Shown in pieces: positions 3,246-62,658 of a stretch of 64,000 nucleotides of DNA. Position numbers and translations under genes: made by a program. Numbering within the stretch: the first letter of the stretch is position 1; every line of letters starts with the position of its first letter. Source of the stretch: Kiritimatiellaceae bacterium. GTDB lineage: Bacteria > Verrucomicrobiota > Kiritimatiellia > Kiritimatiellales > Tichowtungiaceae. The stretch is from the NCBI GenBank assembly GCA_013141415.1, contig JABFQY010000006.1, positions 62,001 to 126,000 on the forward strand. Reading direction: 5' to 3'. Below the pieces are notes generated by a model that had not been told where the DNA came from, did no database searches, and saw nothing but the letters and a program-made list of their open reading frames with translations.

Positions 3246-4136
3246 ATGAAAACCGGAAACAAAGTCCGCATCCTGATCAATCCGAACTCCGGAATGGGCG
3301 TGGCCCTCGACCGTATCCACGGAGCGCTCATCGAACACTGGGACAAGCCCGGCAACGACCTTTCCATTCAGTTCAGCACATCCAAAGAAGACGGACAGGC
3401 CAAAGCCCGCCGCGCCGTGGAAGACGGCGTCGGCCGACTGCTGGTGGTTGGCGGCGACGGTATGGTTAACACGATCGGCAGTGTGCTGATCGGTACCGAC
3501 ACCGCGCTGGGCGTTATTCCCGCCGGAAGCGGTAATGGGTTTGCGCGCCATTTCGATATTCCGCTCGACCTCGTCAAAGCCACCGTGGCGCTCGCCTCAG
3601 CTTCGACACAACGAATCGACGTCGGCTTCGCCAACGGCCAGCCGTTTTTCGTCACCTGTTCGCTGGCATGGGACGCCGCGCTGGTAAACATCTTTGAAAA
3701 ATCGCCGATACGCGGTGTACTGCCCTACATTTTTGCCGGCGTTTACCAGTTGTTCGACTATACCCCGCAACCATTCACCTTCTGCATTGATGACGGAGAA
3801 GAGTTCGCCATCGACGATCCGCAGGTTTGCACCGCCGCCAACCTCTCTCAATACGGCGGCGGCGCGCAGATTGCACCCGGTGCCGAAGCCGACGACGGGC
3901 AACTTCTGCTTGTCACCGTCCGCAAGCGCGACATGCCTGTGGTGCTGTTGATGATTGGAAAACTCTTTGACGGCACGATCGACCGCTTAAGCGGAATACA
4001 CACCAAACCGTTCCGCACGCTGACCGTCCGGAGACAAAACGCAGGGCCGATGCAGCTCGATGGAGAACTGATTACAGCCCCGGCAGAAGTAAAAATAACC
4101 GTCCAGCCCCGTGCACTGAACGTGCTCGTTCCTTAA
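3246..4136 (+). CDS. Diacylglycerol kinase / YegS-like lipid kinase
   Basis: The 296-residue protein has a DAGK catalytic domain: 'ILINPNSGMG' near residue 10, the nucleotide-binding GGDGMVNTIGS at about residues 75-85 and GSGNGFARH near residue 97. A C-terminal beta domain ends with 'MQLDGE', as in BmrU/YegS proteins. The family phosphorylates diacylglycerol or related lipids (also sphingosine in eukaryotes) at the inner membrane face. It probably recycles diacylglycerol or makes phosphatidic acid here; the lipid is not predictable. It is third in the NERD-DJ-1 cluster, and its last four bases overlap the convergent mscS gene. Confidence 0.87.
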   Translation: MKTGNKVRILINPNSGMGVALDRIHGALIEHWDKPGNDLSIQFSTSKEDGQAKARRAVEDGVGRLLVVGGDGMVNTIGSVLIGTDTALGVIPAGSGNGFARHFDIPLDLVKATVALASASTQRIDVGFANGQPFFVTCSLAWDAALVNIFEKSPIRGVLPYIFAGVYQLFDYTPQPFTFCIDDGEEFAIDDPQVCTAANLSQYGGGAQIAPGAEADDGQLLLVTVRKRDMPVVLLMIGKLFDGTIDRLSGIHTKPFRTLTVRRQNAGPMQLDGELITAPAEVKITVQPRALNVLVP

Positions 4137-5002
4137 ACGTCGTGTTTGTAGAGGTGCACATCGCGCTGCGGAAACGGCATCGTGAATCCATCGGCATCCA
4201 GCCGCTTCTTGATGGCTTCCGTCAGCGCGAACGAAACGTCGCCGTAATCTTCCGACTTCACCCACGGACGAATAGCCATGTCCACACTGCTTTCCGCCAG
4301 CTTCAAAACGCCCACAAATGGCGCGGGGTCTTTCAGTACACGTGGCTCCTTCGCCAGCAGATCCAGCAGTGCCACTCTGGCTTTGTCGATGCTGTCGCCG
4401 CAGCCGATGCTCGCTGTCAGGTCGAGGCGGCGCGTGCCTTCGGCGGAATAGTTGGTAATGCTGTCGCCCATCATTTTTGAGTTTGGCACGATCACCCGCT
4501 TGTTATCCGGCGTCGTCAGCGTCGTCGTAAAAATATGAATCGCCTTCACCGTACCGCCGGTTCCGGCACCTTCAACGTAGTCGCCGATTTTGAACGGACG
4601 GAAAATAATCATCATCACGCCGGACGCAAAATTGGAAAGCGAGCCTTGCAAAGCCAGACCGACGGCCAACCCGGCGGCGCCCAACACGGCGATGAACGAA
4701 GTCGTCTGCACGCCGAGCTGACCGAGCGCGGCCAGCACCACAAAAACCATCAGCGCGGCAAAAGCCATGTTCACCGTGAACGTCACCAGCACCGGATCGA
4801 CATGAGCCTTCAGCATTCCCTTTTCCAGACCGTTCTGAAGCCTCTTCGCAATCCAGCGCCCGACAAAAAAGATCAGAAGCGCCGCAACCAGTTTAAGTCC
4901 GAACGTCGTCAGCAGCGTCTCCGCCTTTGCCATCCATTCCGGCGTACTGCTCAACATCTGCTGAACACCCATTACCGCACTCTCGACTGCATTCGTTTCC
5001 AT
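4133..5002 (-). CDS. mscS: Small-conductance mechanosensitive channel, MscS type
   Basis: The 289-residue protein is the size of E. coli MscS. Three membrane helices lie near residues 30-50, 72-92 and 97-125. The pore helix carries a Gly/Ala-rich pattern 'GAAGLAVGLALQGSLSNF', followed by the beta domain with FKIGDYVE and 'VIVPNSKMMGDSITNYS'. MscS opens under membrane tension and releases solutes during hypo-osmotic shock. A strong AAGGAGG lies seven bases before the ATG. The gene converges on the lipid kinase with a 4-bp overlap, so no terminator fits between them. Confidence 0.92.
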   Translation of the reverse strand: METNAVESAVMGVQQMLSSTPEWMAKAETLLTTFGLKLVAALLIFFVGRWIAKRLQNGLEKGMLKAHVDPVLVTFTVNMAFAALMVFVVLAALGQLGVQTTSFIAVLGAAGLAVGLALQGSLSNFASGVMMIIFRPFKIGDYVEGAGTGGTVKAIHIFTTTLTTPDNKRVIVPNSKMMGDSITNYSAEGTRRLDLTASIGCGDSIDKARVALLDLLAKEPRVLKDPAPFVGVLKLAESSVDMAIRPWVKSEDYGDVSFALTEAIKKRLDADGFTMPFPQRDVHLYKHDV

Positions 5003-5185
5003 GAAGCCCTCCTTGTTTTCGCCGCCAGCATATTGCGCCGCCGGAGATTTGTCTTGTCGAAATTAGCGATAAAACATTCTGGAGTGCGGCGGCAAGCATA
5101 GCGCGACGCCGCTTTCAATGAATAGAGCGGTCTCGCGCCTGCGGGTTGCCGCTCCCTTTGGTCGCTCCAGCCTACGGCTGAGACC

Positions 5186-5286: not shown

Positions 5287-5357
5287 AACGTAGACGCGAC
5301 GCCCTCGTCGCGTTACTGCCGAATAAAAAAACGCGACGAGGGCGTCGCGTCTACGTT
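5287..5357. repeat. Long perfect palindrome (REP-like family A)
   Basis: Two arms of 28 bases (5287-5314 and 5330-5357) are exact inverted copies around a 15-base loop. Each contains GACGCCCTCGTCGCG or its complement. The same family occurs inside coaB at 60793-60861. The RNA or single-stranded DNA would form a very stable hairpin. Confidence 0.9.
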
Positions 5358-5452
5358 CAATGCCGCGCCCACCGGACGCGGCCACAGAATTCCAAGATGG
5401 AAGCGGCATCGCTGCCGCTCTGGGCTGAGCGGCTGGACTCGACCGAAGGGGT

Positions 5453-6631
5453 TTACATCAATCCGGCGGCGCGGTGTTTGGCTGCAATGGTGTCGGCCAG
5501 CGTGTCGAGTTCGGCCAAGGCATCGGCTTTCGGGTGGCCTTTGGCGATGACCGCTCCGACGACTTCCACTTTCCATGACGGTAGCAATTCCGCCGCCTTT
5601 TGAAGCGGGCCAGGACTCCAGCCGTAGGAACCAATCACTGCGGCAAATTTCGCTTTCGGTTTCAGCCGGTCGAGCAGAAACGCTGTGTTGACCGCCACCG
5701 GATGCAAAGCCGCCATAATGACCGAAGAGCCGAGCACGATGGTCGCGGCATCCGTCAGAAAACCCGCCAGCTCATTCAAAGGAACAGTAACCAGATCCTT
5801 CAGTGCCACCTTTACACCGCGTTTTTCGAGCGCGGCCTGAAGATGTTCGGCCATGATTTTTGTACTGCCGTGCGTCGAAACATAGGCGATCAAAGCCAGA
5901 TTCTCCGGCGCACCGCGCATCCATTTTTCGTAGAGATCGAGAATGATCTGCGGCTTGTCATAGACGGAGCCGTGGCTCGGGCAGATCATTTCGATATCCA
6001 GAGCCTTGATGCGGTCGAGGTGTTTCGCCGTCATCTTGGAATAGAGCATCATAATCTGGACGTAATACTCTTTGGCGCCTTTATAGACGGCAGGATTGTC
6101 GCCCGCTAAAATATTAGTGAAGGAGTGGTGAGAGCCAAGGAAGTCACATGGAAAAAGAATTTTGTCTTCCGGAATGTAGGTGATCGCAGTTTCCGGCCAG
6201 TGTACCCACGGGCAAAACATAAAGCGGATGGTTTTATTGCCGAGCGAAACTTCGCCGCCGTCAGCAACCACTTGAATCCGGTCATCAGGAATCACCATCA
6301 AGTCCTGCAACATCTCTTTATTCTTCTGCAGGCAGAGCAAGGTCGCTTCAGGATATTTTTCCAGCAGAACCGGAATGGAACCGGAATGATCCTGCTCGGC
6401 GTGGTGCGATACGATGTAGTCGATTTTTTTGACGCCTTCGAGATTCGCCAGCAGAACATCCAGAAATTCCGGCTCAACCGTGTCAAACAGCGCCGTCTTT
6501 TCCGATCCGACGACCAGATAGGAGTTATACGTTGTCCCCTGCGAAAGCGGCAGCAACCCATCAAACACCTTCCGATTTGGATCCAGCGCACCGACCCAGA
6601 AAATATCCTTCTTAATCGCAATCTTGCTCAC
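5453..6631 (-). CDS. Flavodiiron protein (FprA-type O2/NO reductase)
   Basis: The 392-residue protein has the two-domain flavodiiron core. A metallo-beta-lactamase-like diiron domain covers residues 1-250, with ligands H77-x-E79-x-D81-H82, a following His in 'PWVHWP', Asp in 'FPCDF' and His in 'CPSHGS'. A flavodoxin domain (about 255-392) begins with 'IAYVSTHGSTKIMA' for FMN phosphate binding. Such soluble enzymes reduce O2 to water, or NO to N2O, with electrons from rubredoxin or F420H2. No rubredoxin is fused here, unlike the paralogue at 23168-25723. The start is GTG, preceded by AAGGAG. It lies downstream of the metal-efflux operon on the same strand but after a hairpin, so it may be a separate unit. 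Confidence 0.93.
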   Translation of the reverse strand: MSKIAIKKDIFWVGALDPNRKVFDGLLPLSQGTTYNSYLVVGSEKTALFDTVEPEFLDVLLANLEGVKKIDYIVSHHAEQDHSGSIPVLLEKYPEATLLCLQKNKEMLQDLMVIPDDRIQVVADGGEVSLGNKTIRFMFCPWVHWPETAITYIPEDKILFPCDFLGSHHSFTNILAGDNPAVYKGAKEYYVQIMMLYSKMTAKHLDRIKALDIEMICPSHGSVYDKPQIILDLYEKWMRGAPENLALIAYVSTHGSTKIMAEHLQAALEKRGVKVALKDLVTVPLNELAGFLTDAATIVLGSSVIMAALHPVAVNTAFLLDRLKPKAKFAAVIGSYGWSPGPLQKAAELLPSWKVEVVGAVIAKGHPKADALAELDTLADTIAAKHRAAGLM

Positions 6632-29152: not shown

Positions 29153-29183
29153 ATATTCTCCATCGATTGTTAAAAATAAAAAC

Positions 29184-29231
29184 GTGGGACAGGCTTCCAG
29201 CCTGTCCGGACAGCCATTCTGGCTGTCCTAC
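29184..29231. repeat. Double-hairpin repeat (REP-like)
   Basis: Two adjacent perfect hairpins, GGACAGGCT/AGCCTGTCC at 29187-29207 and GGACAGCCA/TGGCTGTCC at 29208-29228, are bounded by GTG and TAC. It lies between purC and the MNT gene. Confidence 0.8.
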
Positions 29232-29237
29232 TTTCAT

Positions 29238-50256: not shown

Positions 50257-50348
50257 GAGGGCAAGGCTTCTACCGGATATTCCACAGTTTGCAAAGCAAC
50301 AGCATCAGTTATACAAAATTACCTGAATCATCCGTACCGTTTATTCTG

Positions 50349-50411
50349 GTATGTAGTACCGGCTTTAGCCGGAACAGCTTGGGAACCGCCTGAAGGCGGG
50401 ACTACATACCC
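50349..50411. repeat. Double-hairpin repeat, family B, copy 1
   Basis: Outer arms GTATGTAGT and ACTACATAC enclose two hairpins, CCGGCTTTAGCCGG and CCGCCTGAAGGCGG, giving a cloverleaf-like shape. Copy 2 lies about 115 bases downstream. Confidence 0.85.
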
Positions 50412-50463: not shown

Positions 50464-50523
50464 GGTATGTAGTACCGGCTTTAGCCGGAACCGTTGGAGC
50501 CGCCTGAAGGCGGGACTACATGC
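50464..50523. repeat. Double-hairpin repeat, family B, copy 2
   Basis: This has the same arms and two inner hairpins as copy 1 in the same orientation, with a slightly shorter middle. The flank CCGTTTATT before the repeat is shared too, so the unit was probably duplicated in tandem. Confidence 0.85.
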
Positions 50524-60074: not shown

Positions 60075-60625
60075 TGAAACGTATTCTCATAGGTGTGACC
60101 GGCGGAATTGCGGCGTACAAGGCGGCCAGTGTCGTCAGTGCGCTCAAGCAGGCCGGATACGACGTGCAGGTGGCGATGACGCCTGCCGCCTGTCAGTTTG
60201 TTACGCCGCTCACTTTCGCCGCGCTGTCGCAGAAAGAAGTCCGCACGGAACTTTTCCCGGCGCACCCGACTTCCGACAAAGGCCAGCTCTACCCGCACCT
60301 CTACCCCGCCACTGAAGCCGACCTCTTCGCCGTCCTGCCCGCCACCGCCGACATCATCGGCAAACTGGCCTACGGCTTCGGCGACGACATTGTTTCCGCC
60401 AGCGCGCTTTCGCTCTCGAAAAAGTGCGTCAAACTTTTCTGCCCCGCCATGAACACGCAGATGTGGGACAACCCCGTCGTCCGCGAAAACGCCCAGACCT
60501 TGGAAAAACGTGGCTGGCAGCGCATCGGCCCCGAAGCCGGCCTGATGGCCTGCGGAACCGAAGGCGCCGGACGCATGAGCGAACCCGCCGCCATTCTCGA
60601 AGCGATTAAAAAAGCGCTCGCATGA
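60074..60625 (+). CDS. coaC: Phosphopantothenoylcysteine decarboxylase (stand-alone CoaC)
   Basis: CoaC is an FMN flavoprotein that decarboxylates 4'-phosphopantothenoylcysteine to phosphopantetheine in CoA synthesis. The 183-residue protein has 'ILIGVTGGIAAYKAASVVSA', the catalytic-region 'PAMNTQMWDNPVVREN' and 'GLMACGTEGAGRM'. In most bacteria it is fused to CoaB; here it is separate and coupled to coaB by an ATGA overlap. Confidence 0.95.
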   Translation: MKRILIGVTGGIAAYKAASVVSALKQAGYDVQVAMTPAACQFVTPLTFAALSQKEVRTELFPAHPTSDKGQLYPHLYPATEADLFAVLPATADIIGKLAYGFGDDIVSASALSLSKKCVKLFCPAMNTQMWDNPVVRENAQTLEKRGWQRIGPEAGLMACGTEGAGRMSEPAAILEAIKKALA

Positions 60626-61293
60626 AAAAGGTTCTCATCCTTTCCGGGCCGACACACGAATACTTTGATCCGGTTCGCTTTATCGGCAACGCCAGCTCCG
60701 GCAAAATGGGCAAGGCCCTCGCCGAAGAAGCAATTAGGCGCGGCATGGAAGTCGAATTCATTTCCGGCCCGGTCGCGGAAGAGAATCTCCCCAACGTAGA
60801 TGCGACGCCCTCGTCGCATTCTGACAGCCGGAGAAACGCGACGAGGGCGTCGCGTCTACATATCCAAAAAGTCATCTCCGCCGAAGAAATGCTGGCCGCC
60901 GCGAAAGAAAAGTTTTCCTCCGCCGACTTCATCATCTTCGCCGCCGCCGTCGCCGACTATCAGCCTGCAAAAAAATCAGACGCGAAACTTCCGAAAGTCG
61001 GAAACAGCCTCACGATTGAACTGAAACCGACACCCGACATTGCCGCCACGCTCTGCGCGAATAAACGGAAAGATCAAGTCGCCATCGGCTTTGCGCTCCA
61101 GACGTACGACGGCGAAACCAAAGCCCGTGAAAAACTGATCTCAAAAAATCTGGACGGCATCGTCCTCAATACTCCCGCCACCCTCGGCGCTGAATCCGGA
61201 CTCTTCACCTGGATCGATAAGCAGGGTTTGGAAAACTGGGGTTCACTCGGTAAGGCGGAATGTGCAAAGAGGATTTTAGATAAGTCGGGTTAA
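60622..61293 (+). CDS. coaB: Phosphopantothenate-cysteine ligase (stand-alone CoaB) with an in-frame palindrome insertion
   Basis: CoaB joins cysteine to 4'-phosphopantothenate with CTP. The 223-residue protein has the family opening 'ILSGPTHEYFDPVRFIGNAS', the strand 'SADFIIFAAAVADYQPAKKS' and 'GFALQTYDGETKAREKLISK'. Residues 58-80 (nt 60793-60861) have no match in the family: they are encoded by a palindromic repeat of the type found at 5287-5357 and lie in the loop between 'EFISGPVAEENLP' and 'IQKVISAEEML'. The insert is 69 bases and keeps the frame. The loop lies at the protein surface in known CoaB folds, so activity is probably kept. The small ORF on the other strand overlaps the 3' end. 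Confidence 0.92.
   Translation: MKKVLILSGPTHEYFDPVRFIGNASSGKMGKALAEEAIRRGMEVEFISGPVAEENLPNVDATPSSHSDSRRNATRASRLHIQKVISAEEMLAAAKEKFSSADFIIFAAAVADYQPAKKSDAKLPKVGNSLTIELKPTPDIAATLCANKRKDQVAIGFALQTYDGETKAREKLISKNLDGIVLNTPATLGAESGLFTWIDKQGLENWGSLGKAECAKRILDKSG
60793..60861. repeat. Palindrome of REP-like family A inside coaB
   Basis: The arms at 60793-60820 and 60835-60861 share the GCGACGCCCTCGTCGC core with the intergenic copy at 5287-5357. Two transitions in the left arm still allow G-U pairs in RNA. It is 69 bases in coding terms. Confidence 0.88.
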
Positions 61294-61610: not shown

Positions 61611-62162
61611 TTATTCCATCCACCGCAAAACATTTATCTCACCCTGAAACGACCACGCTTCCGGCGTTGTGACCAGCCCTGCACGAACCGGATTGTTCCG
61701 GACATATTCCCATTTTTCACTGTAGCTCTCGCCGTGCCGCAACTGCGTGTCCCAGAAATCATCCTGCCAAATAGGCTGTTCATTTGGTCTTGGCCACTTT
61801 TGAGAAACAAGAGTTTTCCAGAATTTTATCCACTGTTTTAACGACGGATATTCAATAATACCCGGCGTGCAAAAAAAGTGAATATGGTCAGGCATAACAA
61901 CGTATTTACCGACCAACCAGTGATCCGCCGAACGCCATGATTCAATCATCAACCGGTGTACATCCTCATGAGCAAAGATTGGTTTCCGATCTTTGGAACA
62001 AACTGTGACAAAAACAATATTTGAACGGTTCGACATCTCATCAAGCGGAATGTGTGCAGGATGCTTTCGAGAGGAATACGGCGTTGACGGAGCAACGCCC
62101 TCCGGACTCGGGTTCCCGGAGGGTTGCGCTCCGTCGCAACCATCTTTGAATTCATTATCCAT
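61611..62162 (-). CDS. REP-associated tyrosine transposase (RAYT, Y1/HUH family)
   Basis: RAYTs are single-copy relatives of IS200/IS605 transposases thought to spread REP palindromes. The 183-residue frame has the HUH metal motif in 'VVMPDHIHFFCTPG' and 'EYVRNNPVRAGLVTTP' near the end with the typical helix; the catalytic Tyr is probably the one in 'SYSEKWEYVRN'. It is flanked on both sides by REPs of one family. The ATG at 62162 overlaps the gtrA end by eight bases, and the first ~30 codons run through REP copy 2; the ATG at 62036 is the only other ATG, but conserved 'RKHPAH' lies before it. Confidence 0.88.
   Translation of the reverse strand: MDNEFKDGCDGAQPSGNPSPEGVAPSTPYSSRKHPAHIPLDEMSNRSNIVFVTVCSKDRKPIFAHEDVHRLMIESWRSADHWLVGKYVVMPDHIHFFCTPGIIEYPSLKQWIKFWKTLVSQKWPRPNEQPIWQDDFWDTQLRHGESYSEKWEYVRNNPVRAGLVTTPEAWSFQGEINVLRWME
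62086..62141. repeat. RAYT-flanking REP, copy 2
   Basis: GACGGAGCAACGCCCTCCGG pairs with CCGGAGGG and TTGCGCTCCGTC, followed by GCAACC. It is read within the 5' end of the longest RAYT frame. Confidence 0.85.
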
Positions 62163-62658
62163 GAAAGATAAAAAACTTGCGGCCGGCGTAGTTGATGAGG
62201 AGCGCGGAGATGGCGGCGGCGATGTAGGAATAGGTGGTGTCGAGTCCGCCGAAGCGGATGAGCAGGTCGCCCGCCGCCGTGCCGATCAGGAATGAAATCA
62301 GCGAGACGGCATAGAAGAGCATCAGTTCGTGGTGTCGTTTGTGTTTACCGGCTTTGAAAACAAACATCACGTTGAGAACGTAGGCCGTGAAGTTGGAAAA
62401 GATAAAACCGATGCCTTTATCGATCCAGTAGTTGCGCAGGCGGAGCGATTCCGAAACCGTGCGGATATCCAGATGAAGCATTCCCAGCAGTTTGGTGAAC
62501 GGATCGCTTTCTCGCAGCGCCGGAAAAACCAGCCAGGCGAAAAGAAAGAAGACTGTCATATCGACGGCCGTGGCCGCGCCGCCGCACATTCCGTATTTGA
62601 TGAACTGAACCAGCCGATTATCTTTTTCCGCCAGAAAAGCCTGAATGTGTTTTTTCAT
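62155..62658 (-). CDS. GtrA-family membrane protein
   Basis: The 167-residue protein has four membrane helices and the GtrA pattern: 'FIKYGMCGGAATAVDMTVFF', 'IGFIFSNFTAYVLNVMFVF' and a basic end 'LLINYAGRKFFIF'. GtrA proteins are linked to flipping or handling of polyprenyl-linked sugars for surface polysaccharides. The ATG at 62658 is preferred over a TTG at 62679 that would add seven residues. Its end overlaps the longest RAYT frame by eight bases. Confidence 0.85.
   Translation of the reverse strand: MKKHIQAFLAEKDNRLVQFIKYGMCGGAATAVDMTVFFLFAWLVFPALRESDPFTKLLGMLHLDIRTVSESLRLRNYWIDKGIGFIFSNFTAYVLNVMFVFKAGKHKRHHELMLFYAVSLISFLIGTAAGDLLIRFGGLDTTYSYIAAAISALLINYAGRKFFIFHG

Follow-up and report, generated by a model that had tools for sequence, protein, structure and literature searches.

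According to our analysis, the perfect palindrome at positions 5287–5357 of the window (the whole 64,000-nucleotide stretch of DNA from a Kiritimatiellaceae bacterium that was analysed here) is a REPIN as that term is used in PMC3116915. We consider it probable that this REPIN is a non-autonomous element moved through single-stranded DNA by a RAYT/TnpA_REP-type transposase of the Y1 HUH class, that its cognate RAYT resides in priA, and that the elements concerned are translationally transparent and homing-like. With some reserve, we also lean towards a wider reading: HUH transposases of one clade would have turned into homing elements that are nested in genes and need no splicing, with REP-RAYT-REP units that enter linkers of needed genes in frame, are translated as inserted domains, spread to the same sites in different species, and seed translatable REPINs across the genome.

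A REPIN family with in-frame copies

Direct comparison of the arms (5287–5314 and 5330–5357) confirmed the palindrome described in an earlier note on this DNA: the arms are 100% complementary over 28 nt and enclose a loop of 15 nt. Each arm has the anatomy GTAG-A-CGCGACG-CCCT-CGTCGCG-T, that is, a GTAG tag and an 8-bp hairpin with the loop CCCT. The left REP (5290–5313) lies on the plus strand, and the right one (5331–5354, minus strand) is its inverted copy with GTAG as its outer end; the tag therefore points outward in both arms. As naked single-stranded DNA, the 71-mer is predicted to fold into a long hairpin (−40 kcal/mol, z −11.8). The REP/RAYT frame in which the earlier note had placed the palindrome was the right one, but the unit is not one REP; it is a REP doublet, here assigned to family A (REP-A). 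Its 23-nt core has four matches in the window at up to three mismatches, vs. none in 100 shuffles, and, as had been claimed, it is common to the insert in coaB, which is a near copy (60796–60859).

The REPIN is extragenic and belongs to a 450-bp island that had been placed downstream of mscS. This placement was wrong: the mscS-like gene (a putative name; 4133–5002) and the flavodiiron-like gene (named by eye; 5453–6631) are encoded on the minus strand, which puts the island upstream of the former and downstream of the latter, with the REPIN upstream of the mscS start and downstream of the flavodiiron stop. The two further repeat types reported for the island were recovered as a single REP of family B (5397–5418, plus strand; G000:C6:67397-67418; ATGG-AAGCGGCA-TCGC-TGCCGC, two mismatches to the family-B pattern) and a third family, a repeat of ~73 bp (5077–5149), for which the listed matches include at least seven other copies, complete or partial, in the genome. 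A comparison of the island with known RNAs in Rfam gave just matches far below the gathering scores. In the syntenic genomes G005, G007, and G013, the island is short or missing, and no REP-A copy is listed there. Other REP families are represented elsewhere in the window. An inverted pair at 29181–29234 has the same core as the REPs flanking a RAYT nested in xseA, and near-repeated GTAG-tagged inverted pairs at 50348–50410 and 50464–50488 (GTAGTACCGGCTTTAGCCGG / GTAGTCCCGCCTTCAGGCGG) form a further family, also present near the RAYT at C1:442862.

The earlier note had proposed a genome-wide count and a search for empty sites, and it took uniqueness of the element apart from the coaB copy, with no empty sites in relatives, as the outcome that would speak against its reading. 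The opposite was observed. A pattern search of the 2.2-Mb genome (G000) at up to three mismatches catalogued 68 REP-A arms in 37 clusters: 29 outward-tagged doublets, two inward-tagged doublets, and six singles. The spacer measures 16–20 nt in 22 of the 29 outward doublets, and the exact GTAG is found in 66 of the 68 arms, chosen as these were at up to three mismatches. Arms are unequal in 17 of the 29 doublets (35 of 667 columns differ), whereas within arms the hairpin is kept: 473 of 476 pairs are standard (three of them G-T), three are broken, and 12 compensatory double changes were recorded, e.g., C-G to T-A. The conserved feature is the single REP hairpin and not the long palindrome. Perfect arms had been read as a sign of recent movement or active maintenance; since pairing over 28 nt is not what is maintained, they indicate at most a young copy.

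The GTAG tag with a short hairpin, the inverted doublets, the many copies, and a RAYT flanked by the same REP all agree with the description of REPINs. With regard to their extragenic location, the picture is mixed, as 16 of the 37 clusters are in frame within genes that have Pfam-recognised domains. The hosts are tilS (two clusters), a photolyase, a class III aminotransferase, metG, a HAD hydrolase, a Mur ligase, a PD-(D/E)XK/UvrD-type protein (three), prmC (two), coaB, and priA (three, namely those of the nested RAYT itself). Only frames with Pfam support were counted, which excludes L005, L015, and L140:5219-5914. A REP near the IDH gene was considered as a case of gene disruption and rejected: an intact-looking IDH frame ends just before the REP, which is thus intergenic and adjoins a partial repeat of the end of that gene.

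The second family-A REPIN of the window (60796–60859, plus strand) is an in-frame insert of coaB, whose frame (60610–61290, plus strand; DFP domain, PF04127, E 2.7e-53) runs through it. Among 13 relatives, the coaB site is empty in five (G001, G004, G005, G008, and G010), holds other palindromes in four (family B in G009, G011, and G013; another type in G012), and has an unclassified extra stretch in G003; G002, G006, and G007 were uninformative. About 0.9 kb from the coaB REPIN, a frame of 224 aa on the minus strand (61614–62285) has a Y1_Tnp-like match of 20.7 bits, which is below the Pfam cut-off.

The exact 23-mer was found in 81 stretches of named genomes, a distribution that points to Kiritimatiellales as the source of the window. 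The titles of the 80 listed comprise 65 of Kiritimatiellales, Kiritimatiellaeota, Pontiellaceae, or Pontiella, 10 of Verrucomicrobia, four of Lentisphaerae, and one of Ignavibacteria. REP-A matches at up to three mismatches occur in 10 of the 14 genomes of the genus, the present one included.

A separate micro-palindrome, TTCCAANNNTTGGAA, occurs at 71 places in the 2.2 Mb of G000 (e.g., C1:124432 and C1:276656), vs. none for a reversed control pattern, and it is at times read in frame, e.g., as FQCLE in the REPIN-bearing tilS frame. We rejected it as a target of REPIN insertion: it lies within 30 bp of five of the 37 clusters, vs. 0.04 expected under an even spread, but this proximity may reflect shared hot spots.

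RAYTs nested in host genes

Eleven Y1_Tnp matches were found in the genome, two of which miss the family cut-off; a further match (C2:60034-60558), the twelfth, is divergent and lay outside the hairpin scan, with no catalogued REP-A within 40 kb. REP-A directly adjoins both sides of just one of the 11 loci scanned, C3:506428-506661. This locus is part of an element (C3:506357-507072) with REP-A at C3:506357 and C3:507050 and one REP-A pair inside, and this element lies within priA. The RAYTs at C1:442862, C3:579741, and C3:518147 have GTAG hairpins of their own, some other RAYTs have none in the scan, and separate REP-A insertions lie at a distance of ~1 kb from another three RAYTs. This association makes the priA-nested RAYT on C3 the likely cognate of the palindrome at 5287–5357.

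The priA frame encodes 1040 aa, in which the PriA 3'BD, helicase, zinc-ribbon, and C-terminal domains surround Y1_Tnp (Pfam); it also accounts for the single match to PriA 3'BD in the genome. The xseA frame (647 aa) and that of a B12/radical-SAM/DUF4080 gene (718 aa) each hold a further nested RAYT, with host domains on both sides of Y1_Tnp. Identity to the xseA RAYT is 47 and 48% for the two others. In all three, Y1_Tnp scores above the cut-off and the NHVH and YI motifs are invariant, and a REP-like NVDAxPxSR stretch is present inside the priA-type RAYTs of all five genomes compared. In a PDB search with a three-row profile of the nested RAYTs, the best match was E. coli TnpA_REP (4er8, E 1.9e-4), which a single sequence matched at E 0.36; IS200/IS605 transposases (2xm3 and others) were matched as well. 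AlphaFold2 modelled both the PriA-RAYT segment and the isolated RAYT with low confidence (pLDDT 43 and 48).

A profile of the three nested RAYTs found members in 31 of the 43 genomes of the order (E ≤ 1e-25). We examined 68 distinct members, i.e., every listed match and three weaker ones of the genus: 52 are nested, two are C-terminal fusions to TatD, and 14 are free-standing or marginal. Of the 43 genomes, 28 contribute nested members, whose hosts are priA (17), CCA/poly(A)-polymerase (10), radical-SAM (9), xseA (9), hypF (2), and others (5), which include a type I restriction R subunit, a Fic-domain gene in which the RAYT lies close to the end, a DUF1698 methyltransferase, and, in two cases, a mevalonate-decarboxylase-like gene. 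Representatives were assigned to host genes by Pfam, and the remaining members by BLAST clustering; most genomes are draft assemblies, and several nested members are cut by contig ends. Long frames alone do not prove nesting in GC-rich genomes. The sole exception to stop-free frames that we saw is the hypF-nested RAYT of G008, which has an internal TAG. The fusions to the TatD DNase (L212/L257 and L229) come from two genomes.

In a phylum-wide draw of 387 genomes, which included part of the order, 80 matched at E 1e-40. The hosts of two loci outside the order (L291 and L292, same phylum), from genomes distant from each other, were inspected; both are Eco57I-type methylases, and the in-frame RAYT occupies much the same position in each, between conserved motifs.

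The PriA linker and competing explanations

PriA 3'BD was found in 34 of the 43 genomes; this gave 30 loci, of which 29 were used (G023 was left out). With G005 and G017 not spanned and the query, G000, set aside, 26 relatives remained, and in all 26 the length of the linker insert is divisible by three and no stop codon interrupts it. The linker is empty (7–11 residues) in G015, G018, G019, G025, and G034. In G035 it holds a family-A REPIN, judged by its peptide, and this represents a REP-only state; G007, G016, and G030 have other REP-like inserts, G012 has a family-B remnant, and G001 and G008 have unclassified stretches of 15 and 31 residues. The other 14 relatives carry whole RAYTs of three lineages.

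The history of these RAYTs differs from that of their host gene. G000 and G013 share 92% identity in the PriA N domain and 55% in the RAYT, whereas for G000 and G029, a member of another family, the values are 52 and 70%. The RAYT_A lineage forms one clade (96/100). A single clade for the priA RAYTs of the genus was rejected (p-AU 4.7e-6), and the host data rejected a single clade of RAYT_A carriers (p-AU 1.6e-6). The conflict between the trees and the identity contrasts show that RAYTs at this one site have been exchanged or inserted anew without following the descent of the host gene, a pattern that may be compared with homing. All priA RAYTs formed one group in a smaller tree, without good support (70/57), and two groups in a tree of 65 rows (the 68 members minus three partial rows); there may therefore have been one or two entries into priA.

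The number of REP-A copies follows the RAYT_A carriers only roughly: carriers have 68 (G000), 19 (G004), and 9 (G003), and genomes without RAYT_A at priA have 10 (G009), 9 (G012), and 6 (G013). Family-B REPs track family-B RAYTs weakly, with 14 (G013), 9 (G011), 3 (G009), and 3 (G010) in the presence of such RAYTs, and 9 (G000) and 5 (G012) for comparison.

The main alternative is an ordinary REP/BIME system, in which present-day mobility would be absent: the REPINs would be ancient relics, and the priA RAYT would have been domesticated as a PriA domain and passed on by vertical descent. RAYTs are described as very close to housekeeping genes (PMC8266576), and RAYTs of the same host gene do largely cluster, with seven changes of host-gene label on the RAYT tree vs. 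40.4 when shuffled. Strong purifying selection would also fit domestication. Selection of this kind on the nested RAYTs is evident from the sequence comparison: of 13 nested pairs chosen, the 10 that gave a finite dS have a dN/dS of 0.050–0.162 for the RAYT, and the ratio is 0.055–0.210 for the host part in all 13, these ratios being rough, as dS is saturated in three of the 13 RAYT pairs and high in most others. In 11 of the 13 pairs the RAYT exceeds the host part in synonymous difference (pS), and in two it falls below it, with the largest gaps in G003/G004 priA (0.72 vs. 0.36) and G033/G034 radical-SAM (0.80 vs. 0.37), which fits an exchange of RAYTs. Vertical inheritance is difficult to reconcile with the conflicting trees and the contrasting identities at one PriA site, and with different palindromes at one coaB site; we therefore regard this alternative as unlikely.

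We prefer a mobile REP-RAYT system. The RAYT, within the fusion or translated from it, would likely nick REP hairpins on single-stranded DNA at sites recognised by GTAG; REP nicking has been discussed for the enzymes of E. coli, Stenotrophomonas, and Marinomonas (PMC8266576). The REP-flanked DNA, REP-A included, would then be reinserted, and in needed genes the inserts that keep the frame would survive. The REP-RAYT-REP element may be called "translationally transparent": its length is divisible by three and, but for the one exception noted above, the frame stays open from the host through the REPs and the transposase, so that it can sit in the linkers of needed genes without breaking them; the short REP-REP derivatives, i.e., the REPINs, would be equally transparent. 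The fusion proteins are presumably made and work unspliced. In the PriA linker, elements would arrive, leave, and be replaced by other RAYT lineages, in a manner resembling homing.

Inteins and group I introns are inserted in conserved genes at fixed sites. The inserts described here share this habit and could be thought to be removed at the RNA or protein level, as an IStron-like intron or an unusual intein, leaving the host protein insert-free; IStrons do join IS elements and group I introns (PMC4227781). We consider such removal highly improbable: there was no Rfam match at the gathering score in four nested loci (L039, L140, L143, and L110) and no intein domain in Pfam scans of 14 RAYT-bearing frames, and an intron would not need a kept reading frame. 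We give very little credence to the palindrome being mainly a transcription terminator or mRNA stabiliser: although it lies 3' of the flavodiiron-like gene with a hairpin and then a T run on the strand of that gene, with three terminator-like sites vs. 0.7 in shuffles, and although REPs are commonly 3' of genes (PMC3733652), the same element is also read in frame within coding sequences, in which a terminator would do damage, the T run falls within the variable spacer, and termination may be a side effect of a mobile element and not its reason.

Significance and comparison with known systems

PriA and XseA are replication and repair enzymes that handle single-stranded DNA, which is the substrate of HUH transposases. 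A transposase appears here as part of such enzymes, and this bears on two questions, namely how REPINs persist and where their RAYTs hide. Our results suggest that a selfish gene can live, without splicing, in the only priA copy found in a genome, and that in-frame palindromes may be a route to new protein segments. In the open-licence papers searched, we found no earlier report of a RAYT nested in host proteins. Surveys that drop over-long proteins would probably miss nested RAYTs; from the survey of Quentin et al. (2018; PMC6006769), "unexpectedly long proteins" were removed as products of erroneous annotation or of gene fusion.

Published work already covers REPINs, intragenic REPs, and the occurrence of GTAG REPs in Verrucomicrobia. 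The present family resembles the GTAG REPs and REPINs of Bertels and Rainey (2011; PMC3116915) and Di Nocera et al. (2013; PMC3733652) in its GTAG tag, short hairpin, inverted doublets, tens of copies, and linked RAYT. GTAG repeats are already known from the verrucomicrobial Opitutus terrae, and intragenic REPs are known mostly from O. terrae and Rickettsia conorii (PMC3733652). Compared with the systems described there, the differences are the share of clusters in frame in recognised genes (16/37) and the gene-nested position of the likely cognate RAYT. By its motifs, this RAYT looks nearest to subclass 2.4 of RAYT/TnpA_REP, an assignment made by eye from the table of Quentin et al. (2018; PMC6006769): it has NHVH, WQ, and YIxxNP-like motifs, REP flanks, and a REP inserted in the tnpA gene itself, as is often so in that subclass. 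In contrast to members of subclass 2.4, it is not a free-standing gene, which makes it a less typical RAYT but does not argue against its working like one.

Rickettsia palindromic elements (RPEs) are likewise palindromes read in frame in many genes, but they are short (~150 bp), whereas in the present case entire transposase genes are read in this way; the passages of PMC10969869 consulted link no transposase to RPEs. With IS200/IS605 elements and IStrons, the nested RAYTs share the Y1 HUH enzyme; they differ from them in that no TnpB domain was detected in the 14 nested or fused frames scanned, and from IStrons and group I introns in that the four loci searched against Rfam gave no intron match. 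Parallels are also offered by inteins and the in-frame homing insert of ShiLan (PMC11855218), which are also stop-free inserts of conserved genes with a patchy, homing-like distribution. Inteins are set apart by their splicing, as no Hint or splicing domain was recognised in the same 14 frames, and in the ShiLan insert the endonuclease is out of frame, whereas the transposase described here is encoded in the host's own reading frame.
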